From Hydractinia symbiolongicarpus (lineage: Eukaryota; Cnidaria; Hydrozoa; Anthoathecata; Hydractiniidae), in contig NC_079878.1 in the NCBI RefSeq assembly GCF_029227915.1, positions 32,265,501 through 32,329,500 on the forward strand: a DNA stretch of 64,000 bases. Direction: 5' to 3'. Every line of letters begins with the position of its first letter. Position 1 is the stretch's first letter. Below, piece by piece: positions 1-46,129 of this stretch. Below the pieces are notes generated by a model, which was given only the letters and a program-made list of their open reading frames with translations, searched no databases and was not told the origin of the DNA. Position numbers and translations under genes: made by a program.

Positions 1-49
1 AACGATTTTTTAAATTATTTCTTCAGCACTAAAACGCATGAGACTTGTA
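1..49. repeat. End of a satellite monomer flanking transposon copy 1
   Basis: This is the last part of a ~203-bp satellite monomer, cut by the transposon after GAGACTTGTA. The same monomer phase resumes at 5728 on the far side, so the element sits inside the array. A rare variant (TTTCTTCAGC at 19-28) is also present at the matching place before copy 2 (32882-32891), which ties the two flanks together. Confidence 0.9.
46..49. repeat. Target-site duplication TGTA, left side of copy 1
   Basis: TGTA lies immediately before the left end and again at 5724-5727 after the right end. Uninterrupted monomers read GACTTGTAGTTTTT here, so removing the element plus one TGTA restores a normal monomer. A 4-bp duplication is typical of Chapaev elements. 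A 2-bp TA duplication with CAC...GTG ends is also possible, because the bases next to the right end are ambiguous. Confidence 0.85.
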
Positions 50-64
50 CACGGTAGTTCACGG

Positions 65-89
65 GCGGACATTCAGTCTGCGCATGCGC
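65..89. repeat. Left subterminal inverted repeat block
   Basis: GCGGACATTCAG is followed by four bases and CGCATGCGC, within a 10-bp palindrome GCGCATGCGC (80-89). Inverted, it matches 5673-5697 at 22 of 25 positions. It starts 15 bp from the left end of the element, whereas its partner starts 26 bp from the right end. It is the probable transposase binding site; that role is inferred. Confidence 0.85.
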
Positions 90-806
90 TAATTTTGTTT
101 ACATTTTTAAAAAAAATCAAAATGGCGGCCAGTCGCGTGTTTGTTATGTTTTTTTACGCCTTATTGAATTTGATCAATAAGCAAATTAAATTCACGTGAA
201 GAATTGCTGACTCAGGTTTTTGAGCACGCCGTGGAACATTCTTTTGAAGAAACGTGAGCGAGAAGGTCGAATGTCTTGAGAAAGATAGATTCTCAGGTCG
301 AAAAATGTGCAATCAAATTTCGCGAAAATTTCAATTCCTGGATTAAATAGCTTCAAATCAAACCTCGGCCGGTTATGTCGGCATTCAACTGGGTTTTGCT
401 GGGCAGTTAAAAGGCTAAGGGAACCAATGTAAGTTACCTTGATTGATGGCCACTTTTTTTGTTAAGTCTATGAATAGTCAAAGTTGAGCATTTATAAAGA
501 CATCATTTTGTACCTGTGTTAAGGTATTTACACTGCACTATACTGGGTTCTTACTGGTGGAATATGTTTTTATCTAAATAACAACTATAGCTAAAGTTTG
601 AAAAGCTGGATAAAGGCTTTAGGATGTTCTTATATAGCTATCTGCACTGCACTGTTACTACATCTCGTCAAATTTGTAGCCGAGTAGCTATCCTATTACA
701 TTTTTACATCTGCACTCTGGCAATTTTTACTCTATAAAAACTTTAATAATTATAAACTAGTAGCTAGGTATCTGCTATCTAATACGTCTGATATCCAACA
801 AATAAT
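90..806. other. Non-coding left arm of the transposon (3' side of the gene)
   Basis: This AT-rich stretch has no convincing exon. It holds subterminal inverted-repeat elements at 367-375 (GGCCGGTTA, matched inverted at 5424-5432) and 444-461, plus a YY1-like CAAAATGGCGGCC at 118-130. Transcription of the transposase gene should end here. A plus-strand ATG at 121 opens only about 25 codons and is not called. Confidence 0.6.
444..461. repeat. Inner subterminal inverted repeat, left arm
   Basis: TGATGGCCACTTTTTTTG is repeated exactly in inverted orientation at 5340-5357. The match is 18 bp long and lies about 390 bp from each end, so the inverted symmetry of the element reaches well inside the terminal block. 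Confidence 0.8.
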
Positions 807-811
807 TTATT
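806..811 (-). promoter_or_regulatory. Candidate polyadenylation signal AATAAA overlapping the stop codon
   Basis: On the minus strand the gene ends GAATAAA, so AATAAA overlaps the TAA stop (807-809). A second candidate, ATTAAA, lies at 742-747. Either could end the transcript within the element; which is used cannot be told. Confidence 0.45.
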
Positions 812-3800
812 CCTGGACAATTTTCCTTCTTTTAATCACCGGCCTTATTCCCTGTACTTCAGGATGGATGCGCAAGTGATGTTCCTTCATCATTGAAAGT
901 AACCTTTTGCTGTCTGGCTTCATCATGCAATAGGTACGTCGAAGATTGTTGAACTCAGCATGAATACTTTCACCACCCTGCTCGCTATATAGGCCAAGCC
1001 CAACACCCCACTTCTCAATAAACCCAACAACATGTTTTTCCAGCAAGTGAAGTTTTGGAGTCACAGGTGCTTTTGGAAATTTTGTCCGGAAGTACAACAT
1101 CAAATCCTTGATAGCTTTATCTAATTAGTATGAAACACAAAAATATTCAATTAAATTTCAGAAAAATGGGAAATTTTTAGCAGACAGCATACTTCAAAAA
1201 ACAGGATTTATCAATGCTAATTAATTAATTTAGTTATGAATTACCTAAGGACGATAACTTTTCTTTGTTGAATTCTTGACAGGAATTCATTGCGTTGTGG
1301 CACATACTATATTTATAGAATAACAACTTGTATTTGGCTGATAATTCCACAGCTCCTTTGTAAATGTTTGTGCCTGCAAGGCCAGGTACATTGTATACCA
1401 TGAGGGGTATTGCATTACATAATTCTATTATGTTACCAACCTAATAAAAATAATATATTTTTTTTGGCAAAATATTTTTGAAAAGTTGCTTTTTGTGCGG
1501 AAATATTGTAAGTTACCTTGAGCATTTTGTGTACATGGTTACCAATAAACGACTGACCATGGTATGCTTGCCTCTCCACATTTAACCTTTTCAAGGTTTC
1601 GTCAAGCTTTTTTACCAGCATTCCATCCCCCTTTTCAAGTTTAAAGGAGCCATTTTCCAGAGCATCAATCTCCTTTAACTATCAAGAAAAGAAACTGTTG
1701 TTGATTATATAACATATAAAAAATTTAAAGGAAATAACAATGTTTTAATGTACTATGTAAAATCCAAATTGTGCTATCCCTACAAACTTTAGTGTTGCTC
1801 ACCCTTTCTGCAATTCTGTTATTAAGATACTTTAACCTTGGTTCATATATCATTCTGATCTCAGTCTCGTTGTCTGGGTCTTTGATAATTGCAGTTTCAA
1901 TTGCATCATGTACCAGGCCAATTTTCTCCTCACAATCCTCACAAACATATTTTAAATTTTCTATCTTTTGTCTAGTCTCAACCAGTCTGTCTATATCACC
2001 TGTATCTTTTATTTGTTTAGACGCAGCTATTCTAATGTCCAACAAATGACATTCATCTTCCAACATTCTGAAAAATTTTAGGTATGTCCCCAGGGAAATA
2101 TGAAGCACTGGAATGGCAACCTAAGGTATACATGCAATTTCTTGTTTGTATGGTTTGGTATCTACAAACATAATCTGTTTCAAGTACTTATCAGTAAATA
2201 CTTACTTGGTCAATAGGAATGTTGAACATAACATCATCTATCGCATTGTTAAAGTTTTTCGCATTTTTTATGTTTCCCCCACTGTCTCTAAACCTTTTAA
2301 GGTCATATGCCAAGGATTCCAGTGTCCTTTGTTCAAATTGCCCTAAAACATAAAGTCATTCTCAGTTTTATGAATTACTAATAATCCATCAGGTTAGAAA
2401 ATATTATGCATTCTTCACAGCTATACTAATGACACTACATAGTCATCATTTTTACCTTGATCCTTAACAGGCTTTTGTATATCTTCCTTTGTAATTGTAC
2501 AAAATAAACAGCAATGTCGTCCTGTTGATTAAAATTATATTATTATTTTAAAAATATCAAGTGGCCTGTGGATAAATACATGGGTTCGTATTTTGCCAGG
2601 TTTTACAGTTTTTAAAAAAAACAATGTATGGGAAAATTTTTTTAATTTTTGCAAGACCTTGTCAATATGAAATTTAGGACATTTTCACTTACATTGCTTT
2701 CTCCTATAAATGTACCTGATGCTCCTGTAATTCCATATGCTGTACAGAGAAAAGCGTAATCTCCAAAAAAAAATACACGTATATTTCTTCCCCTAAAAGG
2801 AAATTAATCTTGTGAAAACAAAACATACACTTACCTACACCTTCTATAATAATGTATAAATTGTAGATGAGGCTAATTTCAGCCTCAAATGTTCTTATTC
2901 AGTGTTCTATGTTTAGGATTGGAACAAATTATATGAAAAAGTAATCTCATTGAAAAAAAGCATATATACACATGATCTTAGCATTGGACCAAATCTCAAC
3001 CTAACTATTTGATTTGTTAACCTCTATTTATTTTTAACTACATTTTTTGCCTATTTGTCACTGCCATTTTTACTATAAAATACATAAAATAAATGTATAT
3101 GACATACTGCCATGTTGCTTTCTGAAGAATATCAACTTGTGCCTTTAATTTTAATAATGCAACTTTCAGGTTTGTTGAAGAATCTTTAGCCTCAAAAGCA
3201 CTGAAAACAACAGTATTGTCTTTACTGTTTGGTTTTGTGACATTACATGGTTGATAAGACATTTTAAAAGAGCCACCACCATGGTCACCTCCTATCTTTA
3301 GATGGATTTCATCTTTAAAAGCTTGTCTCTCTAGCAGCATGGAATTTCTAAATTGTAACAATTAAAAACTTCGTATTATACAACCAGGTAATTGTTGTTG
3401 CTGTTGTTGTTTATGTGCACAGTCAGAATGCATTTAATGTTTTTTCTAAGAAAAACTCACTCAGCCAGTTTGTCCATATGTTCATAAAAGTGTGTTGGCA
3501 AATCATCAACATAACACCAAGGAGCCGGTTGGATTACATATACCCCTTTCTGGTCCTTAGACTCGAAGCGGAATGGGGCAACTTCAACTTTTAAGTTTTC
3601 ACCGTACCAATTTTTTGCAACTTGCCTTTGCCTGGCTTGTGAAGCTGGTTGTATGTTGAAAGTCTTCAACCACCTGAAATAATAATTTATTTTCTCAACT
3701 ATTTTTGAAAAAATTTTAGGAACAGATGAAGCATGGAGTTTGTATTACCTGGCCATTGTTTTCATCTTCTCCCAGGGCACACCCATATCTGCTTTTAAAG

Positions 3801-5250
3801 CAACCATTGCTTCAGAAGTTATTGTTGCAGAAGATAATTGTGCTTCCTTCAAAATTGTCTCCCGTTCTGCCTGAGGGAAGCGCTTTACCAAGGCAGAAGT
3901 CTGCCCTAACAAGGAAAATTTTGTCGATCCAGCTGCCGTGAAGATTTGGTCGTGAAGGAATTTTGTTCTTCTTCTCAAGTGACGGCGACTAACATTTTCT
4001 TTAATTCCTTTTGGAGTAGATGTCAAAACTAATGGCTGAAAATAATTATTCTCATAGATAAATATTGGTATACATAACATAGCTTTTTATAAATGTTTTA
4101 TTAGAATAATAAGAATATTAGAGTGAGATTTACGTTAAAAACGTTTTTATTTAGATCAATGTTATTCCCACCTCTATGAAATACTCTTTTTGTGTAAATC
4201 AGTCTAATATTCTTACGAAGCATGTTTATGTGTTGTTGTTTATGAAGGTGATTAAATCCGATTCAAAAACCTAATTTTATTAAAAAAATAAGTAGTAATC
4301 AGACTTAGTCACATCCGTATGTAAGCCTTTCCATAAATACATACCCTGGATCCACCTGTCTTGAATTCAATGCTTTTAATTGGATTTCTGGAATTGGCAA
4401 TTTTATGCTGAATAACTTGCACAGCCACATCTTCAATCTCCCTTGGTATCGAATTGTCCAAATTAAAAGTCTTTTCAAAAAGGGGTGTTAGGGTTGTTTT
4501 CGGGAAACAAGATCTTTGATGTTCTAACAATGCCGCTTTTGATTTAAGTGGAAACAGTTTACCACAATGCTTATCACATGCGACTCGGAGGCATTTAAGC
4601 ATTTCCACGTGATGTTTCGAATAACGAATTGTTCCCACCAATGATTCACTGCCGCAAGTGGGGCATTTTGCTTCCTCTTCAGTTTTCCCTTCAAAATGTT
4701 TGACAAGGCATGAAAGGCAGTATGCATGCTGACAGGACAGTAAAACAGGCCGAGAAAGTAGGTTGTGACACATGGGGCACAAACACAAGTTTAAGTGTGC
4801 ATTGTGTTCCGGCTTAACTGCACCGAGGTCGTAAGCAGGTTCGTTTTCAGGGGTCATGCTTAAAAATTCTTCAAAGTCTTTTCTCCTCCACAGTTTTTTA
4901 CCAGCTTTTGGTCTGCCTGATTTTGCTTTGGGTATGGGTTTACCCCCCTTTCTAGAGCTCCACTCCTTGCACACTCGACAGTTATCGGAATGGGGTATCC
5001 AGGATATATGCCCGTGCTTTGTTGTTGTAGAGCGATCTCGAATGTTTTTTATACGTGCATAACATTTTGAGCAAATTTTTGTTGGGTGAACTTCTGCGGA
5101 ATCTTTCTCCACATTAAGGAATAGGAATCGGTTAAGGTCGTTTATCCTATCGCTCACGTTATAATTGCATTTCCTTTTGCCAAGGTATTCACCACAAACT
5201 CTACAAAGCTTTGCTAAGTGCTGAACGTGCTGTTGCATATTGGCAGCCAT
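807..5250 (-). CDS. RAG1-like N-terminus / Chapaev DDE transposase, 11 exons, intact (copy 1)
   Basis: Cuts and moves the element. Exons, in order: 5250-4345, 4035-3749, 3673-3461, 3347-3108, 2792-2716, 2521-2456, 2342-2206, 2120-1803, 1678-1517, 1440-1245, 1120-807. All ten introns (75-315 bp) are GT-AG and every phase matches, giving 971 residues. The ATG at 5250 has strong context (AAGATGG). Residues 16-94 carry CRVC, HPTKICSKC and PHSDNCRVC, as in RAG1. Next come a C3HC4 RING (C158, C161, C173, H175, C178, C181, C196, C199) and a C2HC finger (C225, C229, H244, C248). The catalytic part has GGDHGGGSF (D490), FGDYAFL (D560), GASGRHCCLFC and SEQGGESIHAEF (E914 or E918), with C579/C582 and H948/H949/H953 as a zinc pair. 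Splice joins are read by eye, without transcripts. The family call rests on motif recognition; the RAG1 likeness is confined to the N-terminal third and the zinc motif. Confidence 0.9.
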
Positions 5251-5672
5251 CTTTGTAAACAAAAGTGTTGTTAATGCGAGCTAGGCCTAAGGACTTCGCT
5301 GGATAAGTAGTAGGTGTAGGAAATCGTATGTAACTTTCTCAAAAAAAGTGGCCATCAGTTAAGATTTTCAGGTCTCGTAGATTATTTCCTAATCTACTTC
5401 AGGCATAAATTTCAACACCGTGCTAACCGGCCAGCAGAAGATATAGGCCTTGAAGAGTTGTTATTTTTCCAGTCAAAGTGGAGAAGAAAATGTACGTGTT
5501 TTTTGATATATTTTTAATGTTTTTGTTTTAAAGAGGATCAGAATTTGTCATGTATTCCAAAATGCAAAATGGAAAGTGACAAAATTCTGCAAATTTGAAT
5601 ATTTAAATCAAGTTTTGTTGCTACCTTTATTTTAGCTAGGTAAAAAACTGAAATTTTTGTTCTTGGAAGTTT
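5251..5672. other. 5' region of the transposase gene, right arm of the transposon
   Basis: This non-coding stretch lies between the start codon and the right terminal block, so the promoter should be here. I see no clear TATA box at a useful distance. It holds the inverted partners of left-arm elements: 5340-5357 (exact 18-bp match to 444-461) and TAACCGGCC at 5424-5432. Confidence 0.55.
5340..5357. repeat. Inner subterminal inverted repeat, right arm
   Basis: CAAAAAAAGTGGCCATCA is the exact reverse complement of 444-461. It lies about 90 bp upstream of the start codon, so it could also affect transcription; that is a guess. Confidence 0.8.
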
Positions 5673-5697
5673 GCGCATGCGTACTCTGAATGTCCGC
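5673..5697. repeat. Right subterminal inverted repeat block
   Basis: Read inward from the right end, this is GCGGACATTCAG, four bases, then CGCATGCGC, matching the left block at 22 of 25 positions. It begins 26 bp from the element end instead of 15. The extra outer sequence contains another CATTCAG. Confidence 0.85.
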
Positions 5698-5723
5698 TCT
5701 TTTAGTCGGGCTGAATGAACATG

Positions 5724-5727
5724 TGTA
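5724..5727. repeat. Target-site duplication TGTA, right side of copy 1
   Basis: This is the right-hand copy of TGTA, followed by GTTTTTAAAAATG, the normal continuation of the satellite monomer broken at position 49. Confidence 0.85.
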
Positions 5728-5733
5728 GTTTTT

Positions 5734-5751
5734 AAAAATGTTTTCATTTTT
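5734..5751. repeat. Short inverted repeat within the monomer (example)
   Basis: AAAAATG-TTTT-CATTTTT has perfect 7-bp arms around a 4-base loop. It recurs in most monomers with the TAAAAATG or CAAAAATG form and is broken in the CAAAGTG variants. It is the strongest hairpin-forming potential I see in the monomer. Confidence 0.8.
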
Positions 5752-6534
5752 GATGAGACGCTGAATGAAAGAAGTTTAATCGCCGGCAAACGAAAACCCG
5801 CGACTTCCCGTAAATCCCGGACTCGGCCCGTATATTCAAAAGTATACAAAGAAAGTACCCAGGGAGTAAACTCATTCTCCGAAGGATTTTTTAAATTATA
5901 TTTTCACCACTAAAACGCATGAGACTTGTAGTTTTCAAAAATGTTTTCATTTTTGATGAGACGCTGAATGAAAGAAGTTTAATCGCCGGCAAACGAAAAT
6001 CTGCGATTTCCCGTAAATCCCGGACTCGGCCCGTATAGTCAAAAGTATAATAAGAAAGTACCCAGGGTGTAAACTCATTTCCCGAACGATTTTTTAAATT
6101 ATTATTTCACCACTAAAGCCCATGAGACTTGTAGTTTTTAAAAATGTTTTCATTTTTGATGAGACGCTGAATAAAAGAAGTTTAATCGCCGGCAAACGAA
6201 AACCCGCCATTTCCCGTAAACCCTGGACTCGGCCCGTATAATCAAAAGTATACAAAGAAAGTACCCAGGGAGTAAACTTATTTCCCGAACGATTTTTTAA
6301 ATTATTTTTTCACCACTATAACGCATGAGACTTGTAGTTTTCAAAGTGTTTTCATTTTTGATGAGACGCTGAATAAAAGACGTTTAATCGCCGGCAAACG
6401 AAAACCCGCCATTTCCCGTAAACCCTGGACTCGGCCCGTATAATCAAAAGTATACAAAGAAAGTACCCAGGGAGTAAACTCATTTCCCGAACGATTTTTT
6501 AAATTATTTTTCACCACTAAAACGCATGAGACTA

Positions 6535-9500
6535 GTAGTTTTCAAAAATGTTTTCATTTTTGATGAGACGCTGAATAAAAGACGTTTAATCGCCGGCAAA
6601 AGAAAACCCGCCATTTCCCGTAAACCCTGGACTCGGCCCGTATAATCAAAAGTATACAAAGAAAGTACCCAGGGAGTAAACTTATTTCCCGAACGATTTT
6701 TTAAATTATTTTTTCACCACTATAACGCATGAGACTTGTAGTTTTCAAAGTGTTTTCATTTTTGATGAGACGCTGAATAAAAGACGTTTAATCGCCGGCA
6801 AACGAAAACCCGCCATTTCCCGTAAACCCTGGACTCGGCCCGTATAATCAAAAGTATACAAAGAAAGTACCCAGGGAGTAAACTCATTTCCCGAACGATT
6901 TTTTAAATTATTTTTCACCAGTAAAACGCATGAGACTAGTAGTTTTCAAAAATGTTTTCATTTTTGATGAGACGCTGAATAAAAGACGTTTAATCGCCGG
7001 CAAACGAAAACCCGCCATTTCCCGTAAACCCCGGACTCGGCCTGCATAGTCAAAAGTATACAAAGAAAGTACCCAGGGAGTAAACTCATTTCCCGAACGA
7101 TTTTTTAAATTATTTTTTCAGCACTAAAACGCATGAGACTTGTAGTTTTTAAAAATGTTTTCATTTTTGATGAGACGCTGAATGAAAGAAGTTTAATCGC
7201 CGGCAAACGAAAACCCGCGACTTCCCGTAAATCCCGGACTCGGCCCGTATAGTCAAAAGTATACAAAGAAAGTACCCAGGGAGTAAACTCATTCTCCGAA
7301 CGATTTTTTAAATTATATTTTCACCACTAAAACGCATGAGACTTGTAGTTTTCAAAAATATTTTCATTTTTGATGAGACGCTGAATGAAAGAAGTTTAAT
7401 CGCCGGCAAACGAAAATCTGCGATTTCCCGTAAATCCCGGACTCGGCCCGTATAGTCAAAAGTATAATAAGAAAGTACCCAGGGTGTAAACTCATTTCCC
7501 GAACGATTTTTTAAATTATTATTTCACCACTAAAGCCCATGAGACTTTTAGTTTTTAAAAATGTTTTCATTTTTGATGAGACGCTGAATAAAAGAAGTTT
7601 AATCGCCGGCAAACGAAAACCCGCCATTTCCCGTAAACCCTGAACTCGGCCCGTATAATCAAAAGTATACAAAGAAAGTACCCAGGGAGTAAACTTATTT
7701 CCCGAACGATTTTTTAAATTATTTTTTCACCACTATAACGCATGAGACTTGTAGTTTTCAAAGTGTTTTCATTTTTGATGAGACGCTGAATAAAAGACGT
7801 TTAATCGCCGGCAAACGAAAACCCGCCATTTCCCGTAAACCCTGGACTCGGCCCGTATAATCAAAAGTATACAAAGAAAGTACCCAAGGAGTAAACTTAT
7901 TTCCCGAACGATTTTTTAAATTATTTTTTCACCACTAAAACGCATGAGACTTGTAGTTTTCAAAGTGTTTTCATTTTTGATGAGACGCTGAATAAAAGAC
8001 GTTTAATCGCCGGCAAACGAAAACCCGCCATTTCCCGGAAACCCCAGACTCGGCCCGCATAGTCAAAAGTATACAAAGAAAGTACCCACGGAGTAAACTC
8101 ATTTCCCAAACGATTTTTTGAATTATTATTTCACCACTAAAGCCCATGAGACTTGTAGTTTTTAAAAATGTTTTCATTTTTGATGAGACGCTGAATAAAA
8201 GAAGTTTAATCGCCGGCAAATGAAAACCCGCGATTTCCCGTAAATCCCGGACTCGGACCGTATAGTCAAAAGTATACAAAGAAAGTACCCAGGGAGTAAA
8301 CTCATTTCCCGAACGATTTTTTAAATTATTTTTTCACCACTAAAACGCATGAGACTTGTAGTTTTCAGAAATGTTTTCATTTTTGATGAGACGCTTAATG
8401 AAAGTGGTTTAATCGCCGGCAAACGAAAGCCCGCGATTTCCCGTAAATCCCGGGCTTGGCCGGTATAGTCGAATGTATACAAAGAAAGTACCCTGTGAGT
8501 AAACTCATTTCCAAAACGAATTTTTAAATTATCTTTTCACCACTAAAACGCATGAGACTAGTAGTTTTCAAAAATGTTTTCATTTTTGTTGAGACGCTGA
8601 ATAAAAGACGTTTAATCGCCGGCAAAAGAAAACCCGCCATTTCCCGTAAACCCTGGACTCGGCCCGTATAATCAAAAGTATACAAAGAAAGTACCCAGGG
8701 AGTAAACTTATTTCCCGAACGATTTTTTAAATTATTTTTTCACCACTATAACGCATGAGACTTGTAGTTTTCAAAGTGTTTTCATTTTTGATGAGACGCT
8801 GAATAAAAGACGTTTAATCGCCGGCAAACGAAAACCCGCCATTTCCCGTAAACCCTGGACTCGGCCCGTATAATCAAAAGTATACAAAGAAAGTACCCAG
8901 GGAGTAAACTCATTTCCCGAACGATTTTTTAAATTATTTTTCACCACTAAAACGCATGAGACTAGTAGTTTTCAAAAATGTTTTCATTTTTGATGAGACG
9001 CTGAATAAAAGACGTTTAATCGCCGGCAAACGAAAACCCGCCATTTCCCGTAAACCCCGGACTCGGCCTGCATAGTCAAAAGTATACAAAGAAAGTACCC
9101 AGGGAGTAAACTCATTTCCCGAACGATTTTTTAAATTATTTTTTCAGCACTAAAACGCATGAGACTTGTAGTTTTTAAAAATGTTTTCATTTTTGATGAG
9201 ACGCTGAATGAAAGAAGTTTAATCGCCGGCAAACGAAAACCCGCGACTTCCCGTAAATCCCGGACTCGGCCCGTATAGTCAAAAGTATACAAAGAAAGTA
9301 CCCAGGGAGTAAACTCATTCTCCGAACGATTTTTTAAATTATATTTTCACCACTAAAACGCATGAGACTTGTAGTTTTCAAAAATATTTTCATTTTTGAT
9401 GAGACGCTGAATGAAAGAAGTTTAATCGCCGGCAAACGAAAATCTGCGATTTCCCGTAAATCCCGGACTCGGCCCGTATAGTCAAAAGTATAATAAGAAA

Positions 9501-10586
9501 GTACCCAGGGTGTAAACTCATTTCCCGAACGATTTTTTAAATTATTATTTCACCACTAAAGCCCATGAGACTTGTAGTTTTTAAAAATGTTTTCATTTTT
9601 GATGAGACGCTGAATAAAAGAAGTTTAATCGCCGGCAAACGAAAACCCGCCATTTCCCGTAAACCCTGGACTCGGCCCGTATAATCAAAAGTATACAAAG
9701 AAAGTACCCAAGGAGAAAACTTATTTCCCGAACGATTTTTTAAATTATTTTTTCACCACTAAAACGCATGAGACTTGTAGTTTTCAAAGTGTTTTCATTT
9801 TTGATGAGACGCTGAATAAAAGACGTTTAATCGCCGGCAAACGAAAACCCGCCATTTCCCGTAAACCCTGGACTCGGCCCGTATAATCAAAAGTATACAA
9901 AGAAAGTACCCAAGGAGTAAACTTATTTCCCGAACGATTTTTTAAATTATTTTTTCACCACTAAAACGCATGAGACTTGTAGTTTTCAAAGTGTTTTCAT
10001 TTTTGATGAGACGCTGAATAAAAGACGTTTAATCGCCGGCAAACGAAAACCCGCCATTTCCCGGAAACCCCGGACTCGGCCCGCATAGTCAAAAGTATAC
10101 AAAGAAAGTACCCACGGAGTAAACTCATTTCCCAAACGATTTTTTGAATTATTATTTCACCACTAAAGCCCATGAGACTTGTAGTTTTTAAAAATGTTTT
10201 CATTTTTGATGAGACGCTGAATAAAAGAAGTTTAATCGCCGGCAAATGAAAACCCGCGATTTCCCGTAAATCCCGGACTCGGACCGTATAGTCAAAAGTA
10301 TACAAAGAAAGTACCCAGGGAGTAAACTCATTTCCCGAACGATTTTTTAAATTATTTTTTCACCACTAAAACGCATGAGACTTGTAGTTTTCAGAAATGT
10401 TTTCATTTTTGATGAGACGCTTAATGAAAGTGGTTTAATCGCCGGCAAACGAAAGCCCGCGATTTCCCGTAAATCCCGGGCTTGGCCGGTATAGTCGAAT
10501 GTATACAAAGAAAGTACCCTGTGAGTAAACTCATTTCCAAAACGATTTTTTAAATTATCTTTTCACCACTAAAACGCATGAGACTT
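6535..10586. repeat. Higher-order repeat: 10-monomer unit (2,026 bp) in tandem
   Basis: The monomer variants from about 6535 to 8560 recur in the same order from about 8561 to 10586 at an offset of 2,026 bp. Rare variants such as GGCAAAAGAAAACCC reappear at that spacing. Edges are approximate because neighbouring monomers are also alike. Confidence 0.8.
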
Positions 10587-13500
10587 GTAGTTTTCAAAGT
10601 GTTTTCATTTTTGTTGAGACGCTGAATAAAAGACGTTTAATCGCCGGCAAACGAAAACACGCCATTTCCCGTAAACCCCGGACTCGGCCCGCATAGTCAA
10701 AAGTATACAAAGAAAGTACCCAGGGAGTAAACTCATTTCCCAAACGATTTTTTGAATTATTATTTCACCACTAAAGCCCATGAGACTTGTAGTTTTTAAA
10801 AATGTTTTCATTTTTGATGAGACGCTGAATAAAAGAAGTTTAATCGCCGGCAAATGAAAACCCGCGATTTCCCGTAAATCCCGGACTCGGCCCGTATAGT
10901 CAAAAGTATACAAAGAAAGTACCCAGGGAGTAAACTCATTTACCGAACGATTTTTTAAATTATTTTTTCACCACTAAAACGCACGAGACTTGTAGTTTTC
11001 AGAAATGTTTTCATTTTTGATGAGACACTTAATGAAAGTGGTTTAATCGCCGGCAAACGAAAGCCCGCGATTTCCCGTAAATCCCGGGCTTGGCCGGTAT
11101 AGTTGAATGTATACAAAGAAAGTACCCTGTGAGTAAACTCATTTCCAAAACGATTATTTAAATTATCTTTTCACACCTAAAACGCATGAGACTTGTAGTT
11201 TTCAAAAATGTTTTCATTTTTGATGAGACGCTGAATAAAAGAAGTTTAATCGCCGGCAAACGAAAACCCGCGACTTCCCGTAAATCCCGGACTCGGCCCG
11301 TATAGTCAAAAGTATACAAAGGAAGTACCCAGGGAGTAAACTCATTTCCCGAACGATTATTTAAATTATATTTTCACCACTAAAACGCATGAGACTTGTA
11401 GTTTTCAAAAATGTTTTCATTTTTGATGAGACGCTGAATAAAAGACGTTTAATCGCCGGCAAACGAAAACCCGCCATTTCCCGTAAACCCCATACTCGGC
11501 CCGCATAGTCAAAAGTATACAAAGAAAGTACCCAGGGAGTAAACTCATTTCCCGAACGATTTTTTAAATTATTTTTTCAGCATTAAAACGCATGAGACTT
11601 GTAGTTTTTAAAAATGTTTTCATTTTTGATGAGACGCTGAATGAAAGAAGTTTAATCGCCGGCAAACGAAAACCCGCGACTTCCCGTAAATCCCGGACTC
11701 GGCCCGTATAGTCAAAAGTATACAAAGAAAGTACCCAGGGAGAAAACTCATTTCCCGAACGATTTTTTAAATTATATTTTCACCACTAAAACGCATGAGA
11801 CTTGTAGTTTTCAAAAATCTTTTCATTTTTGATGAGACGCTGAATGAAAGAAGTTTAATCGCCGGCAAACGAAAACCTGCAATTTCCCGTAAATCCCGGA
11901 CTCGGCCCGTATAGTCAAAAGTATAATAAGAAAGTACCCAGGGAGAAAACTCATTTCCCGAACGATTTTTTAAATTATATTTTCACCACTAAAACGCATG
12001 AGACTTGTAGTTTTCAAAAATCTTTTCATTTTTGATGAGACGCTGAATGAAAGAAGTTTAATCGCCGGCAAACGAAAACCTGCAATTTCCCGTAAATCCC
12101 GGACTCGGCCCGTATAGTCAAAAGTATAATAAGAAAGTACCCAGGGTGTAAACTCATTTCCCGAACGATTTTTTAAATTATTATTTCACCACTAAAGCCC
12201 ATGAGACTTGTAGTTTTTAAAATTGTTTTCATTTTTGATGAGACGATGAATAAAAGAAGTTTAATCGCCGGCAAACGAAAACCCGCCATTTCCCGTAAAC
12301 CCTGGACTCGGCCCGTATAATCAAAAGTATACAAAGAAAGTACCCAGGGAGTAAACTTATTTCCCGAACGATTTTTTAAATTATTTTTTCACCACTAAAA
12401 CGCATGAGACTTGTAGTTTTTAAAAATGTTTTCATTTTTGATGAGACGCTGAATAAAAGACGATTAATCGCCGGCAAACAAAAACCCGCCATTTCCCGTA
12501 AACCCCGGACTCGGCCCGCATAGTCAAAAGTATACAAAGAAAGCACCCAGGGAGTAAACTCATTTCCCGATCGATTTTTTAAATTATTTTTTCAGCACTA
12601 AAACGCATGAGACTTGTAGTTTTTAAAAATGTTTTCATTTTTGATGAGACGCTGAATGAAAGAAGTTTAATCGCCGGCAAACGAAAACCCGCGACTTCCC
12701 GTAAATCCCGGACTCGGCCCGTATAGTCAAAAGTATACAAAGAAAGTACCCAGGGAGTAAACTCATTCTCCGAACGATTTTTTAAATTATATTTTCACCA
12801 CTAAAACGCATGAGACTTGTAGTTTTCAAAAATGTTTTCACTTTTGATGAGACGCTGAATGAAAGAAGTTTAATCGCCGGCAAACGAAAACCTGCGATTT
12901 CCCGTAAATCCCGGACTCGGCCCGCATAGTCAAAAGTATACAAAGAAAGTACCCAGGGAGTAAACTCATCTCCCGAACGATTTTTTAAATAATTTTTTCA
13001 GCACTAAAACGCATGAGACTTGTAGTTTTTAAAAATGTTTTCATTTTTGATGAGACGCTGAATGAAAGAAGTTTAATCGCCGGCAAACGAAAACCCGCGA
13101 CTTCCCGTAAATCCCGGACTCGGCCCGTATAGTCAAAAGTATACAAAGAAAGTACCCAGGGAGTAAACTCATTCTCCGAACGATTTTTTAAATTATATTT
13201 TCACCACTAAAACGCATGAGACTTGTAGTTTTCAAAAATGTTTTCATTTTTGATGAGACGCTGAATGAAAGAAGTTTAATCGCCGGCAAACGAAAATCTG
13301 CGAATTCACGTAAATCCCGGACTCGGCCCGTATAGTCAAAAGAATAATAAGAAAGTACCCAGGGTGTAAACTCATTTCCCGAACGATTTTTTAAATTATT
13401 ATTTCACCACTAAAGCCCATGAGACTTGTAGTTTTTAAAAATGTTTTCATTTTTGATGAGACGCTGAATAAAAGAAGTTTAATCGCCGGCAAACGAAAAC

Positions 13501-16500
13501 CCGCCATTTCCCGTAAACCCTGGACTCGGCCCGTATAATCAAAAGTATACAAAGAAAGTACCCAGGGAGTAAACTTATTTCCCGAACGATTTTTTAAATT
13601 ATTTTTTCACCACTATAACGCATGAGACTTGTAGTTTTCAAAGTGTTTTCATTTTTGATGAGACGCTGAATAAAAGACGTTTAATCTCCGGCAAACGAAA
13701 ACCCGCAATTTCCCGTAAACCCTGGACTCGGCCCGTATAATCAAAAGTATACAAAGAAAGTACCCAAGGAGTAAACTTATTTCCCGAACGATTTTTTAAA
13801 TTATTTTTTCACCACTAAAACGCATGAGACTTGTAGTTTTCAAAGTGTTTTCATTTTTGATGAGACGCTGAATAAAAGACGTTTAATCGCCGGCAAACGA
13901 AAACCCGCCATTTCCCGGAAACCCCGGACTCGGCCCGCATAGTCAAAAGTATACAAAGAAAGTACCCACGGAGTAAACTCATTTCCCAAACGATTTTTTG
14001 AATTATTATTTCACCACTAAAGCCCATGAGACTTGTAGTTTTTAAAAATGTTTTCATTTTTGATGAGACGCTGAATAAAAGAAGTTTAATCGCCGGCAAA
14101 TGAAAACCCGCGATTTCCCGTAAATCCCGGACTCGGCCCGTATAGTCAAAAGTATACAAAGAAAGTACCCAGGGAGTAAACTCATTTCCCGAACGATTTT
14201 TTAAATTATTTTTTCACCACTAAAACGCATGAGACTTGTAGTTTTCAGAAATGTTTTCATTTTTGATGAGACGCTTAATGAAAGTGGTTTAATCGCCGGC
14301 AAACGAAAGCCCGCGATTTCCCGTAAATCCCGGGCTTGGCCGGTATAGTCGAATGTATACAAAGAAAGTACCCTGTGAGTAAACTCATTTCCAAAACGAT
14401 TTTTTAAATTATCTTTTCACCACTAAAACGCATGAGACTTGTAGTTTTCAAAGTGTTTTCATTTTTGTTGAGACGCTGAATAAAAGACGTTTAATCGCCG
14501 GCAAATGAAAACCCGCGATTTCCCGTAAATCCCGGACTCGGCCCGTATAGTCAAAAGTATACAAAGAAAGTACCCAGGGAGTAAACTCATTTACCGAACG
14601 ATTTTTTAAATTATTTTTTCACCACTAAAACGCATGAGACTTGTAGTTTTCAGAAATGTTTTCATTTTTGATGAGACTCTTAATGAAAGTGGTTTAATCG
14701 CCGGCAAACGAAAGCCCGCGATTTCCCGTAAATCCCGGGCTTGGCCGGTATAGTCGAATGTATACAAAGAAAGTACCCTGTGAGTAAACTCATTTCCAAA
14801 ACGATTTTTTAAATTATCTTTTCACCACTAAAACGCATGAGACTTGTAGTTTTCAAAAATGTTTTCATTTTTGATGAGACGCTGAATAAAAGAAGTTTAA
14901 TCGCCGGCAAACGAAAACCTGCGATTTCCCGTAAATCCCGGACTCGGCCCGTATAGTCAAAAGTATACAAAGAAAGTACCCAGGGAGTAAGCTAATTTCC
15001 CAAACGATTTTTTGAATTATTATTTCACCACTAAAGCCCATGAGACTTGTAGTTTTTAAAAATGTTTTCATTTTTGATGAGACGCTGAATAAAAGAAGTT
15101 TAATCGCCGGCAAACGAAAACCCGCGATTTCCCGTAAATCCCGGACTCGGCCCGTATAGTCAAAAGTATACAAAGAAAGTACCCAGGGAGTAAACTCATT
15201 TCCCGAACGATATTTTAAATTATTTTTTTACCACTAAAACGCATGAGACTTGTAGTTTTCAGAAATGTTTTCATTTTAGATGAGACGCTTAATAAAAGTG
15301 GTTTAATCGCCGGCAAACGAAAACCCGCGATTTCCCGTAAATCCCGGGCTTGGCCGGTATAGTCGAATGTATACAAAGAAAGTACCCTGTGAGTAAACTC
15401 ATTTCCAAAACGATTTTTTAAATTATCTTTTCACCACTAAAACGCATGAGACTTGTAGTTTTCAAAAATGTTTTCATTTTTGATGAGACGCTGAATAAAA
15501 GAAGTTTAATCGCCGGCAAACGAAAACCCGCCATTTCCCGTAAACCCCGGACTCGGTCCGTATAATCAAAAGTATACAAAGAAAGTACCCAGGGAGTAAA
15601 CTCATTTCCCGAACGATTTTTTAAATTATTTTTTCACCACTAAAACGCATGAGACTTGTAGTTTTCAAAAATGTTTTCATTTTTGATGAGACGCTGAATG
15701 AAAGAAGTTTAGTCGCCGGCAAACGAAAACCTGCGATTTCCCGTAAATCCCGGACTCGGCCCGTATAGTCAAAAGTATACAAAGAAAGTATCCAGGGTGT
15801 AAACTCATTTCCCGAACGATTTTTTAAATTATTATTTCACCACTAAAGGCCATGAGACTTGTAGTTTTTAAAAATGTTTTCATTTTTGATGAGACGCTGA
15901 ATAAAAGACGTTTAATCGCCGGCAAACGAAAACCCGCCATTTCCCGTAAACCCCGGACTCGGCCTACATAGTCAAAAGTATACAAAGAAAGTACCCAGGG
16001 AGTAAACTAATTTCCCGAACAATTTTTTAAATTATTTTTTCAGCACTAAAACGCATGAGACTTGTAGTTTTTAAAAATGTTTTCATTTTTGATGAGACGC
16101 TGAATGAAAGAAGTTTAATCGCCGGCAAACGAAAACCCGCGACTTCCCGTAAATCCCGGACTCGGCCCGTATACTCAAAAGTATACAAAGAAAGTACCCA
16201 GGAAGTAAACTCATTTCCCGAACGATTTTTTAAATTATATTTTCACCACTAAAACGCATGAGACTTGTAGTTTTCAAAAATGTTTTCATTTTTGATGAGA
16301 CGCTGAATGAAAGAAGTTTAATCGCCGGCAAACGAAAACCTGCGATTTACCGTAAATCCCGGACTCGGCCCGTATAGTCAAAAGTATAATAAGACAGTAC
16401 CCAGGGTGTAAACTCATTTCCCGAACGCTTTTTTAAATTATTATTTCACCACTAAAGCCCATGAGACTTGTAGTTTTTAAAAATGTTTTCGTTTTTGATG

Positions 16501-32689: not shown

Positions 32690-32908
32690 TAAAACGCATG
32701 AGACTAGTAGTTTTCAAAAATGTTTTCATTTTTGATGAGACGCTGAATAAAAGACGTTTAATCGCCGGCAAACGAAAACCCGCCATTTTCCGTAAACCCC
32801 GGACTCGGCCCGCATAGTCAAAAGTACACAAAGAAAGTACCCAGGGAGTAAACTCATTTCCCGAACGATTTTTTAAATTATTTCTTCAGCACTAAAACGC
32901 ATGAGACT

Positions 32909-32912
32909 TGTA
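32909..32912. repeat. Target-site duplication TGTA, left side of copy 2
   Basis: TGTA precedes the left end of copy 2 in the same monomer phase as for copy 1, as expected if the junction was duplicated. Confidence 0.85.
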
Positions 32913-32927
32913 CACGGTAGTTCACGG

Positions 32928-32952
32928 GCGGACATTCAGTCTGCGCATGCGC
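32928..32952. repeat. Left subterminal inverted repeat block, copy 2
   Basis: Identical to 65-89, 15 bp from the left end of copy 2. Its inverted partner is 38536-38560. Confidence 0.85.
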
Positions 32953-33669
32953 TAATTTTGTTTACATTTTTAAAAAAAATCAAAATGGCGGCCAGTCGCG
33001 TGTTTGTTATGTTTTTTTACGCCTTATTGAATTTGATCAATAAGCAAATTAAATTCACGTGAAGAATTGCTGACTCAGGTTTTTGAGCACGCCGTGGAAC
33101 ATTCTTTTGAAGAAACGTGAGCGAGAAGGTCGAATGTCTTGAGAAAGATAGATTCTCAGGTCGAAAAATGTGCAATCAAATTTCGCGAAAATTTCAATTC
33201 CTGGATTAAATAGCTTCAAATCAAACCTCGGCCGGTTATGTCGGCATTCAACTGGGTTTTGCTGGGCAGTTAAAAGGCTAAGGGAACCAATGTAAGTTAC
33301 CTTGATTGATGGCCACTTTTTTTGTTAAGTCTATGAATAGTCAAAGTTGAGCATTTATAAAGACATCATTTTGTACCTGTGTTAAGGTATTTACACTGCA
33401 CTATACTGGGTTCTTACTGGTGGAATATGTTTTTATCTAAATAACAACTATAGCTAAAGTTTGAAAAGCTGGATAAAGGCTTTAGGATGTTCTTATATAG
33501 CTATCTGCACTGCACTGTTACTACATCTCGTCAAATTTGTAGCCGAGTAGCTATCCTATTACATTTTTACATCTGCACTCTGGCAATTTTTACTCTATAA
33601 AAACTTTAATAATTATAAACTAGTAGCTAGGTATCTGCTATCTAATACGTCTGATATCCAACAAATAAT

Positions 33670-36600
33670 TTATTCCTGGACAATTTTCCTTCTTTTAATC
33701 ACCGGCCTTATTCCCTGTACTTCAGGATGGATGCGCAAGTGATGTTCCTTCATCATTGAAAGTAACCTTTTGCTGTCTGGCTTCATCATGCAATAGGTAC
33801 GTCGAAGATTGTTGAACTCAGCATGAATACTTTCACCACCCTGCTCGCTATATAGGCCAAGCCCAACACCCCACTTCTCAATAAACCCAACAACATGTTT
33901 TTCCAGCAAGTGAAGTTTTGGAGTCACAGGTGCTTTTGGAAATTTTGTCCGGAAGTACAACATCAAATCCTTGATAGCTTTATCTAATTAGTATGAAACA
34001 CAAAAATATTCAATTAAATTTCAGAAAAATGGGAAATTTTTAGCAGACAGCATACTTCAAAAAACAGGATTTATCAATGCTAATTAATTAATTTAGTTAT
34101 GAATTACCTAAGGACGATAACTTTTCTTTGTTGAATTCTTGACAGGAATTCATTGCGTTGTGGCACATACTATATTTATAGAATAACAACTTGTATTTGG
34201 CTGATAATTCCACAGCTCCTTTGTAAATGTTTGTGCCTGCAAGGCCAGGTACATTGTATACCATGAGGGGTATTGCATTACATAATTCTATTATGTTACC
34301 AACCTAATAAAAATAATATATTTTTTTTGGCAAAATATTTTTGAAAAGTTGCTTTTTGTGCGGAAATATTGTAAGTTACCTTGAGCATTTTGTGTACATG
34401 GTTACCAATAAACGACTGACCATGGTATGCTTGCCTCTCCACATTTAACCTTTTCAAGGTTTCGTCAAGCTTTTTTACCAGCATTCCATCCCCCTTTTCA
34501 AGTTTAAAGGAGCCATTTTCCAGAGCATCAATCTCCTTTAACTATCAAGAAAAGAAACTGTTGTTGATTATATAACATATAAAAAATTTAAAGGAAATAA
34601 CAATGTTTTAATGTACTATGTAAAATCCAAATTGTGCTATCCCTACAAACTTTAGTGTTGCTCACCCTTTCTGCAATTCTGTTATTAAGATACTTTAACC
34701 TTGGTTCATATATCATTCTGATCTCAGTCTCGTTGTCTGGGTCTTTGATAATTGCAGTTTCAATTGCATCATGTACCAGGCCAATTTTCTCCTCACAATC
34801 CTCACAAACATATTATAAATTTTCTATCTTTTGTCTAGTCTCAACCAGTCTGTCTATATCACCTGTATCTTTTATTTGTTTAGACGCAGCTATTCTAATG
34901 TCCAACAAATGACATTCATCTTCCAACATTCTGAAAAATTTTAGGTATGTCCCCAGGGAAATATGAAGCACTGGAATGGCAACCTAAGGTATACATGCAA
35001 TTTCTTGTTTGTATGGTTTGGTATCTACAAACATAATCTGTTTCAAGTACTTATCAGTAAATACTTACTTGGTCAATAGGAATGTTGAACATAACATCAT
35101 CTATCGCATTGTTAAAGTTTTTCGCATTTTTTATGTTTCCCCCACTGTCTCTAAACCTTTTAAGGTCATATGCCAAGGATTCCAGTGTCCTTTGTTCAAA
35201 TTGCCCTAAAACATAAAGTCATTCTCAGTTTTATGAATTACTAATAATCCATCAGGTTAGAAAATATTATGCATTCTTCACAGCTATACTAATGACACTA
35301 CATAGTCATCATTTTTACCTTGATCCTTAACAGGCTTTTGTATATCTTCCTTTGTAATTGTACAAAATAAACAGCAATGTCGTCCTGTTGATTAAAATTA
35401 TATTATTATTTTAAAAATATCAAGTGGCCTGTGGATAAATACATGGGTTCGTATTTTGCCAGGTTTTACAGTTTTTAAAAAAAACAATGTATGGGAAAAT
35501 TTTTTTAATTTTTGCAAGACCTTGTCAATATGAAATTTAGGACATTTTCACTTACATTGCTTTCTCCTATAAATGTACCTGATGCTCCTGTAATTCCATA
35601 TGCTGTACAGAGAAAAGCGTAATCTCCAAAAAAAAATACACGTATATTTCTTCCCCTAAAAGGAAATTAATCTTGTGAAAACAAAACATACACTTACCTA
35701 CACCTTCTATAATAATGTATAAATTGTAGATGAGGCTAATTTCAGCCTCAAATGTTCTTATTCAGTGTTCTATGTTTAGGATTGGAACAAATTATATGAA
35801 AAAGTAATCTCATTGAAAAAAAGCATATATACACATGATCTTAGCATTGGACCAAATCTCAACCTAACTATTTGATTTGTTAACCTCTATTTATTTTTAA
35901 CTACATTTTTTGCCTATTTGTCACTGCCATTTTTACTATAAAATACATAAAATAAATGTATATGACATACTGCCATGTTGCTTTCTGAAGAATATCAACT
36001 TGTGCCTTTAATTTTAATAATGCAACTTTCAGGTTTGTTGAAGAATCTTTAGCCTCAAAAGCACTGAAAACAACAGTATTGTCTTTACTGTTTGGTTTTG
36101 TGACATTACATGGTTGATAAGACATTTTAAAAGAGCCACCACCATGGTCACCTCCTATCTTTAGATGGATTTCATCTTTAAAAGCTTGTCTCTCTAGCAG
36201 CATGGAATTTCTAAATTGTAACAATTAAAAACTTCGTATTATACAACCAGGTAATTGTTGTTGCTGTTGTTGTTTATGTGCACAGTCAGAATGCATTTAA
36301 TGTTTTTTCTAAGAAAAACTCACTCAGCCAGTTTGTCCATATGTTCATAAAAGTGTGTTGGCAAATCATCAACATAACACCAAGGAGCCGGTTGGATTAC
36401 ATATACCCCTTTCTGGTCCTTAGACTCGAAGCGGAATGGGGCAACTTCAACTTTTAAGTTTTCACCGTACCAATTTTTTGCAACTTGCCTTTGCCTGGCT
36501 TGTGAAGCTGGTTGTATGTTGAAAGTCTTCAACCACCTGAAATAATAATTTATTTTCTCAACTATTTTTGAAAAAATTTTAGGAACAGATGAAGCATGGA

Positions 36601-38113
36601 GTTTGTATTACCTGGCCATTGTTTTCATCTTCTCCCAGGGCACACCCATATCTGCTTTTAAAGCAACCATTGCTTCAGAAGTTATTGTTGCAGAAGATAA
36701 TTGTGCTTCCTTCAAAATTGTCTCCCGTTCTGCCTGAGGGAAGCGCTTTACCAAGGCAGAAGTCTGCCCTAACAAGGAAAATTTTGTCGATCCAGCTGCC
36801 GTGAAGATTTGGTCGTGAAGGAATTTTGTTCTTCTTCTCAAGTGACGGCGACTAACATTTTCTTTAATTCCTTTTGGAGTAGATGTCAAAACTAATGGCT
36901 GAAAATAATTATTCTCATAGATAAATATTGGTATACATAACATAGCTTTTTATAAATGTTTTATTAGAATAATAAGAATATTAGAGTGAGATTTACGTTA
37001 AAAACGTTTTTATTTAGATCAATGTTATTCCCACCTCTATGAAATACTCTTTTTGTGTAAATCAGTCTAATATTCTTACGAAGCATGTTTATGTGTTGTT
37101 GTTTATGAAGGTGATTAAATCCGATTCAAAAACCTAATTTTATTAAAAAAATAAGTAGTAATCAGACTTAGTCACATCCGTATGTAAGCCTTTCCATAAA
37201 TACATACCCTGGATCCACCTGTCTTGAATTCAATGCTTTTAATTGGATTTCTGGAATTGGCAATTTTATGCTGAATAACTTGCACAGCCACATCTTCAAT
37301 CTCCCTTGGTATCGAATTGTCCAAATTAAAAGTCTTTTCAAAAAGGGGTGTTAGGGTTGTTTTCGGGAAACAAGATCTTTGATGTTCTAACAATGCCGCT
37401 TTTGATTTAAGTGGAAACAGTTTACCACAATGCTTATCACATGCGACTCGGAGGCATTTAAGCATTTCCACGTGATGTTTCGAATAACGAATTGTTCCCA
37501 CCAATGATTCACTGCCGCAAGTGGGGCATTTTGCTTCCTCTTCAGTTTTCCCTTCAAAATGTTTGACAAGGCATGAAAGGCAGTATGCATGCTGACAGGA
37601 CAGTAAAACAGGCCGAGAAAGTAGGTTGTGACACATGGGGCACAAACACAAGTTTAAGTGTGCATTGTGTTCCGGCTTAACTGCACCGAGGTCGTAAGCA
37701 GGTTCGTTTTCAGGGGTCATGCTTAAAAATTCTTCAAAGTCTTTTCTCCTCCACAGTTTTTTACCAGCTTTTGGTCTGCCTGATTTTGCTTTGGGTATGG
37801 GTTTACCCCCCTTTCTAGAGCTCCACTCCTTGCACACTCGACAGTTATCGGAATGGGGTATCCAGGATATATGCCCGTGCTTTGTTGTTGTAGAGCGATC
37901 TCGAATGTTTTTTATACGTGCATAACATTTTGAGCAAATTTTTGTTGGGTGAACTTCTGCGGAATCTTTCTCCACATTAAGGAATAGGAATCGGTTAAGG
38001 TCGTTTATCCTATCGCTCACGTTATAATTGCATTTCCTTTTGCCAAGGTATTCACCACAAACTCTACAAAGCTTTGCTAAGTGCTGAACGTGCTGTTGCA
38101 TATTGGCAGCCAT
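33670..38113 (-). pseudogene. RAG1-like N-terminus / Chapaev transposase, nonsense mutation (copy 2)
   Basis: Same eleven-exon gene as copy 1, shifted by 32,863 (exon 1 is 38113-37208, the last exon 33983-33670). Splice sites and the other exons look unchanged. At 34815 the base is A instead of T, turning the AAA codon for Lys699 into TAA. The product would end after 698 of 971 residues. It would keep the RAG1-like N-terminus, RING, C2HC finger and the first two catalytic aspartates, but lose the catalytic glutamate and the HH half of the zinc motif, so it should not catalyse transposition. The stop is followed by several more exons, so the mRNA may be degraded. A base-calling error cannot be excluded. 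A truncated protein with the zinc-binding N-terminus could in principle act as a repressor; nothing here shows that. Confidence 0.85.
34815..34815 (-). other. Nonsense substitution in exon 8 of copy 2
   Basis: Plus-strand A here, T at the matching 1952 in copy 1. On the coding strand AAA becomes TAA. It is the only difference between the two transposons that I noticed. Confidence 0.88.
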
Positions 38114-38535
38114 CTTTGTAAACAAAAGTGTTGTTAATGCGAGCTAGGCCTAAGGACTTCGCTGGATAAGTAGTAGGTGTAGGAAATCGTATGTAACTTT
38201 CTCAAAAAAAGTGGCCATCAGTTAAGATTTTCAGGTCTCGTAGATTATTTCCTAATCTACTTCAGGCATAAATTTCAACACCGTGCTAACCGGCCAGCAG
38301 AAGATATAGGCCTTGAAGAGTTGTTATTTTTCCAGTCAAAGTGGAGAAGAAAATGTACGTGTTTTTTGATATATTTTTAATGTTTTTGTTTTAAAGAGGA
38401 TCAGAATTTGTCATGTATTCCAAAATGCAAAATGGAAAGTGACAAAATTCTGCAAATTTGAATATTTAAATCAAGTTTTGTTGCTACCTTTATTTTAGCT
38501 AGGTAAAAAACTGAAATTTTTGTTCTTGGAAGTTT

Positions 38536-38560
38536 GCGCATGCGTACTCTGAATGTCCGC
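38536..38560. repeat. Right subterminal inverted repeat block, copy 2
   Basis: Identical to 5673-5697, 26 bp from the right end of copy 2. Confidence 0.85.
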
Positions 38561-38586
38561 TCTTTTAGTCGGGCTGAATGAACATG

Positions 38587-38590
38587 TGTA
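38587..38590. repeat. Target-site duplication TGTA, right side of copy 2
   Basis: TGTA followed by GTTTTTAAAAATG, where the satellite resumes in phase. Confidence 0.85.
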
Positions 38591-44500: not shown

Positions 44501-46129
44501 TGAATGAAAGAAGTTTAATCGCCGGCAAACGAAAACCCGCGACTTCCCGTAAATCCCGGACTCGGCCCGTATAGTCAAAAGTATACAAAGAAAGTACCCA
44601 GGGAGAAAACTCATTTCCCGAACGATTTTTTAAATTATATTTTCACCACTAAAACGCATGAGACTTGTAGTTTTCAAAAATCTTTTCATTTTTGATGAGA
44701 CGCTGAATGAAAGAAGTTTAATCGCCGGCAAACGAAAACCTGCAATTTCCCGTAAATCCCGGACTCGGCCCGTATAGTCAAAAGTATAATAAGAAAGTAC
44801 CCAGGGAGAAAACTCATTTCCCGAACGATTTTTTAAATTATATTTTCACCACTAAAACGCATGAGACTTGTAGTTTTCAAAAATCTTTTCATTTTTGATG
44901 AGACGCTGAATGAAAGAAGTTTAATCGCCGGCAAACGAAAACCTGCAATTTCCCGTAAATCCCGGACTCGGCCCGTATAGTCAAAAGTATAATAAGAAAG
45001 TACCCAGGGTGTAAACTCATTTCCCGAACGATTTTTTAAATTATTATTTCACCACTAAAGCCCATGAGACTTGTAGTTTTTAAAATTGTTTTCATTTTTG
45101 ATGAGACGATGAATAAAAGAAGTTTAATCGCCGGCAAACGAAAACCCGCCATTTCCCGTAAACCCTGGACTCGGCCCGTATAATCAAAAGTATACAAAGA
45201 AAGTACCCAGGGAGTAAACTTATTTCCCGAACGATTTTTTAAATTATTTTTTCACCACTAAAACGCATGAGACTTGTAGTTTTTAAAAATGTTTTCATTT
45301 TTGATGAGACGCTGAATAAAAGACGATTAATCGCCGGCAAACAAAAACCCGCCATTTCCCGTAAACCCCGGACTCGGCCCGCATAGTCAAAAGTATACAA
45401 AGAAAGCACCCAGGGAGTAAACTCATTTCCCGATCGATTTTTTAAATTATTTTTTCAGCACTAAAACGCATGAGACTTGTAGTTTTTAAAAATGTTTTCA
45501 TTTTTGATGAGACGCTGAATGAAAGAAGTTTAATCGCCGGCAAACGAAAACCCGCGACTTCCCGTAAATCCCGGACTCGGCCCGTATAGTCAAAAGTATA
45601 CAAAGAAAGTACCCAGGGAGTAAACTCATTCTCCGAACGATTTTTTAAATTATATTTTCACCACTAAAACGCATGAGACTTGTAGTTTTCAAAAATGTTT
45701 TCACTTTTGATGAGACGCTGAATGAAAGAAGTTTAATCGCCGGCAAACGAAAACCTGCGATTTCCCGTAAATCCCGGACTCGGCCCGCATAGTCAAAAGT
45801 ATACAAAGAAAGTACCCAGGGAGTAAACTCATCTCCCGAACGATTTTTTAAATAATTTTTTCAGCACTAAAACGCATGAGACTTGTAGTTTTTAAAAATG
45901 TTTTCATTTTTGATGAGACGCTGAATGAAAGAAGTTTAATCGCCGGCAAACGAAAACCCGCGACTTCCCGTAAATCCCGGACTCGGCCCGTATAGTCAAA
46001 AGTATACAAAGAAAGTACCCAGGGAGTAAACTCATTCTCCGAACGATTTTTTAAATTATATTTTCACCACTAAAACGCATGAGACTTGTAGTTTTCAAAA
46101 ATGTTTTCATTTTTGATGAGACGCTGAAT

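Follow-up and report, generated by a model that had tools for sequence, protein, structure and literature searches.

How did RAG1, the protein that cuts the antibody genes of vertebrates, come by its N-terminal region: by fusion with N-RAG-TP, or by inheritance together with its catalytic core? The N-RAG-TP of Aplysia has been described (PMC8355894; articles are cited here by PMC number, from excerpts of their text), and RAG1-like (RAG1L) proteins are reported to have N-terminal zinc motifs, with a RING dimerisation domain in molluscs and amphioxus, the N-terminal part being absent from Transib transposases (PMC7204232). The question is raised by a 64,000-bp stretch of the Hydractinia symbiolongicarpus genome (NC_079878.1, positions 32,265,501 to 32,329,500; "the window" hereafter), where a gene on the minus strand at 807-5250 was proposed, in a sequence-only reading, to encode a full-length Chapaev transposase with a RAG1-like N-terminus. 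Our analysis agrees: the locus is very probably a full-length, recently mobile cut-and-paste Chapaev DNA transposon, whose single recognised gene is spliced and encodes a 971-residue transposase with RAG1-like parts. This transposase has counterparts of most RAG1 parts, in unchanged order.

The gene model is the best-scoring open path among GT-AG choices, supported by comparison of copies; it has 11 exons on the minus strand (5250-4345, 4035-3749, 3673-3461, 3347-3108, 2792-2716, 2521-2456, 2342-2206, 2120-1803, 1678-1517, 1440-1245 and 1120-807), ten introns of phases 0, 2, 2, 2, 1, 1, 0, 0, 0 and 1, 971 codons, and a stop codon at 809-807. When as many as six GT/AG choices are allowed in each of the ten gaps, 576 paths remain open (the best eight have 965-979 codons), so that openness alone says little; this, together with the stop codon in the second window copy described below, is what a pseudogene or a chance open path through the splice choices would have in its favour. 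Evidence beyond openness was therefore sought by comparing copies, for which the genome (480.9 Mb, 76 contigs) was searched. Full-length copies on two other contigs, C6 and C8, are 98.8% and 98.7% identical to the window copy, have all ten GT-AG pairs in common with it and each read 971 open codons, as the sequence-only reading had predicted for the window gene. Relative to the window copy, neither has an indel in 2916 exon bases, and the 1528 intron bases have three (C6) and five (C8) indel events. Synonymous and nonsynonymous differences number 17 and 7 for window-C6 (ratio of nonsynonymous to synonymous change, pN/pS, 0.108; binomial p 2.0e-7), 16 and 8 for window-C8 (0.132; 1.6e-6), and 9 and 1 for C6-C8 (0.029; 6.0e-6), the three pairs having a common history and the tests thus not being independent; the corresponding counts within exon 1 are 5/3, 5/3 and 4/0. 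In the two shifted frames the window-C6 counts become 2/17 and 3/18. Because the splice pairs are kept, the exons are free of indels and the synonymous excess appears only in the true frame, the transposase gene model is real and has been subject to selection during the spread of the copies; the same observations, with pN/pS near 0.1, contradict a pseudogene or chance path, to which we attach next to no credence. Protein P0021 is 97% identical to exon 1 and has E80, G97 and F210 in common with C6 and C8; its reading runs on into intron 1, like the genomic frame, and it is therefore not evidence of splicing.

Strong purifying selection on a long intact gene would also suit a domesticated host gene that is no longer a live transposon, and it is the ends of the element that speak to this alternative. 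Comparison with C6, C8 and an internally deleted copy, C3, set the limits of the 5674-bp window element at 50-5723 (minus strand). Its left terminal inverted repeat (50-89, plus strand) starts with CAC, the left end of the element being CACGGTAGTT, and the right terminal inverted repeat (5673-5723, minus strand) ends in ATG, where C6, C8 and C3 have GTG. A subterminal inverted repeat lies further inside, its left arm (438-461, plus strand) 92% complementary to its right arm (5340-5363, plus strand), with an alignment score of 38 versus at most 29 in 100 shuffles. The target site duplication TGTA stands at 46-49 on the left and at 5724-5727 on the right; when the flanks are joined, they match units of a 203-bp satellite, with as many as 111 of 112 bases identical, and the element was therefore inserted in that satellite. 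Exact 4-bp duplications are thus found at three different sites, i.e., TGTA in the window, CCTG at C6 and CGCC at C8. Terminal repeats and such duplications contradict domestication for the family, the divergence of only a few per cent among full-length and deleted copies and the insertion in satellite DNA argue against it as well, and we consider it very improbable. The suggestion that the element might be autonomous holds for the family, in which C6 and C8 are intact, and is less sure for the window copy with its ATG right terminus.

The assignment to Chapaev also rests on the catalytic part. DUF1280 (PF06918), which has been equated with the Chapaev transposase and placed with RAG1 in clade II (PMC3985635), matches the spliced protein at E 1.5e-15 (57.8 bits versus a cut-off of 25). 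The published hallmarks of Chapaev are a 3- to 4-bp duplication, CAC/GTG termini and the motifs C(2)C, LH and H(4)H (PMC4079192). All three motifs are present (C579-x2-C582, L648-H649, H892-x4-H897), and the termini are CAC/GTG in C6, C8 and C3, CAC with ATG in the window copy, and TAC with GCG in a decayed copy, C5. RAG1/RAGL and Transib (HzTransib) differ in making a 5-bp target duplication (PMC8355894), as opposed to 4 bp in the window family. C(2)C and H motifs are described as common to Chapaev, Transib and RAG1 (PMC12730594). All the acidic residues named in the sequence-only reading (D490, D560, E914/E918) are present. The first catalytic Asp, D490 in KIGGDHGGG (codon 3284-3286, minus strand), is found in 17 of 17 alignment rows; the second, D560 in FGDY (2759-2761, minus strand), in 16 of 17, aligned to RAG1 D708. 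The sequence alignment points to E918 (969-971, minus strand; 10 of the 10 rows that reach the position) rather than E914 as the catalytic Glu, because it pairs E918 with RAG1 E962. In a structural model of a relative, the catalytic part has the RAG1 core fold. Pfam matches were taken to E 10, with filters removing most of those above 0.1, and the RAG1 core family PF12940 is not one of them.

The entire RAG1-like N-terminal part, residues 1-302, is encoded by exon 1 (4345-5250, minus strand), whose last residues, GGSR, are followed by a phase-0 intron. Residues 1-100 (4951-5250, minus strand), equated here with the Chapa domain following PMC4411706, correspond to the RAG1 importin-binding region and contain three CxxC motifs interspersed with HPT and W-PHS in the order CxxC/HPT/CxxC/PHS/CxxC; a C3HC4 RING follows at residues 157-201 (4648-4782, minus strand), and then a C-rich zinc finger at residues 218-250 (4501-4599, minus strand), the profile alignment reaching RAG1 residue 368. 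All of these lie where the sequence-only reading had placed them, and the profile search that it had called for returned, besides DUF1280, significant whole-protein matches to RAG1 importin-binding (RAG1_imp_bd, 5.5e-9) and several RING models, both above cut-off. PF12560 matches residues 1-103 at E 3e-11, the N-terminal profile finds RAG1 in the PDB at 1.5e-13, and the N-terminal similarity to RAG1 reaches E 4.3e-22; residues from about 1 to 250 are shown to be homologous to the RAG1 non-core region. In the alignment, C16, C60, C63, W84 and C91 are invariant in every row with letters there, C19 is G in two rows, and two rows differ at C94. As a separate observation, residues 15-70 (5041-5208, minus strand), the first Chapa/RAG1 zinc module, resemble zf-AD (ZAD): five of eight N-terminal pieces give weak in-register Pfam matches to zf-AD, none above cut-off, and the top non-RAG1 match of the N-terminal profile in the PDB is 7po9 (LD30467p; E 0.0036), which we take to be a ZAD structure. 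A limited literature search found no link between zf-AD and this module.

Sixteen related proteins were found, and 21 with a profile. The closest, from Hydra, is 42% identical over 89%; an amphioxus protein is 32% and a eukprot entry 31% identical. With Hydra proteins the nearest, the matches would by themselves make a cnidarian host likely, perhaps a hydrozoan. Hydra vulgaris LOC105850185 (P0001; 42%) and LOC124812048 (P0008; 37%) have N-terminal cysteine motifs, RING and DUF1280 arranged as in the window protein, although their database proteins, in contrast to it, end before the last catalytic motif. Among ten relatives scanned, DUF1280 is above cut-off in ten, RAG1_imp_bd in four and RING in three, with three more RING matches below cut-off; as N-terminal pieces, seven of eight pass the RAG1_imp_bd cut-off, including P0001, which falls under it as a whole protein. 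In the tree, the RING-less P0006 and P0007 sit between groups with RING, a placement that fits loss; later gain is possible, since P0010, P0015 and P0016, which lie outside, are also RING-less.

Several results weigh against a RAG1-like Chapaev element. Residues 1-300 had no match at E<=1 among 5.8 billion proteins, and the segment between the N-terminus and the core, at the position of the RAG1 nonamer-binding domain, does not find RAG1 when searched alone. The core matches RAG1 weakly in sequence (hhalign probability 34.5%), D490 corresponds to RAG1 D600 by order only, and the protein used in the fold comparison was not that of the window but a relative 36% identical over 74%. Of the four full-length or deleted copies that were compared, one, C3, has an imperfect duplication (TAGA/TATA, matching at three of four bases), and a comparison of the flanks of the decayed, interrupted C5 shows no duplication.

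With regard to history, though not to the Chapaev identification, the rival is modular exchange, i.e., movement of the N-terminus by recombination between Chapaev and RAG-like transposons, as in the N-RAG-TP fusion idea. Similarity to RAG1 is far stronger in the N-terminus than in the weakly matching core, the whole N-terminus occupies a single exon ending at a phase-0 intron, and Transib lacks the N-terminal part (PMC7204232), all as exchange would have it; against it, the core too appears from the model to have the RAG1 fold, Chapaev, RAG1L and RAG1 all combine zinc domains with the core, and N-terminal and core distances are congruent within Chapaev, a comparison that tests exchange inside Chapaev only. 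We leave exchange a substantial minority share of our confidence. Because of the congruent distances and the fold match we favour, less surely than the identification itself, a history in which N-terminus and core descended as a unit from a common ancestor with RAG1. The Chapaev transposase resembles vertebrate RAG1 and ProtoRAG RAG1L in the colinear zinc motifs and RING region, in the core fold, and in the D, E, C2 and H2 residues that pair up in the alignments. The fuller proposal is that Chapaev inherited, as a single block, a counterpart of almost the whole of RAG1 (about residues 101-1008, comprising the zinc motifs, the RING dimerisation region and the catalytic core), that no N-RAG-TP fusion was needed, that Transib lost the N-terminus, and that a family still alive, whose intact copies are under selection, makes this testable at the bench; it seems to us evenly balanced between right and wrong.

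The gene is not the first joining of the two parts, because Kapitonov and Koonin (2015; PMC4411706) reported two Chapaev subgroups with a Chapa domain and then a RING in one transposase. By description, their proteins and ours are alike in combining a Chapaev-type transposase with a RAG1-like zinc domain followed by RING; the window family adds a gene of 11 exons encoding 971 aa, of which two more copies are intact, and the element is a well-preserved further example of a published architecture, not a new type. No RAG2-like gene was recognised in the element, and no frame longer than 121 aa lies outside the transposase exons in 1-8000, a search that did not include kelch/PHD models. A limited literature search, which does not prove absence, found no Chapaev protein modelled against RAG1 with AlphaFold, the excerpted text of PMC12730594 being without a Chapaev model. 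Judging from the fold match, the catalytic part of Chapaev seems similar enough to RAG1 for their structures to be compared directly. The transposase would bind the terminal repeats as a dimer, cut the paired ends with D490, D560 and E918, and insert with a 4-bp stagger; by analogy with RAG1, the zinc domains and RING might be involved in dimerisation and perhaps in ubiquitylation through ubiquitin ligase activity. An intact family in which N-terminal and catalytic exons are selected offers a natural protein for measuring the zinc/RING role in transposition.

A second copy of the element lies in the window at 32913-38586 (minus strand), at the same satellite position and differing by one base, which makes TAA at codon 699. 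Because window 32864-47750 repeats window 1-14887 with only 6 mismatches in 14,887 bases, satellite included, this copy belongs to a duplicated stretch that is 14.9 kb long or more, and is not a second insertion; the duplication reflects either an assembly effect or recent amplification of a satellite array carrying the transposon. Apart from the two copies, the window is filled by the 203-bp satellite, in arrays of about 134 copies (5724-32912) and about 125 copies (38587-64000). By eye, the left flank of the C6 copy (L009) seems to adjoin the same satellite sequence. Of the 15 genome sites with the terminal motif, 7 are forward and 8 reverse, and four lie in the window; the reversed-pattern control gave none. 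The C3 copy (L011, G000:C3:18953400-18955800) is about 1.6 kb long, retains its two termini and the greater part of exon 1, and is likely non-autonomous; the C5 copy (L012, L013) spans about 11 kb, is interrupted by other sequence and has altered termini. The left-end motif is also found in C2, C7 and C9, where BLAST with the whole element aligned 65 bases in C2 and none in C7 or C9; C2 and C9 also contain a loose right-end word. At loci L014, L015 and L016 the sequence next to the terminal motif is diverged, and they may be older or related elements sharing the left end only.
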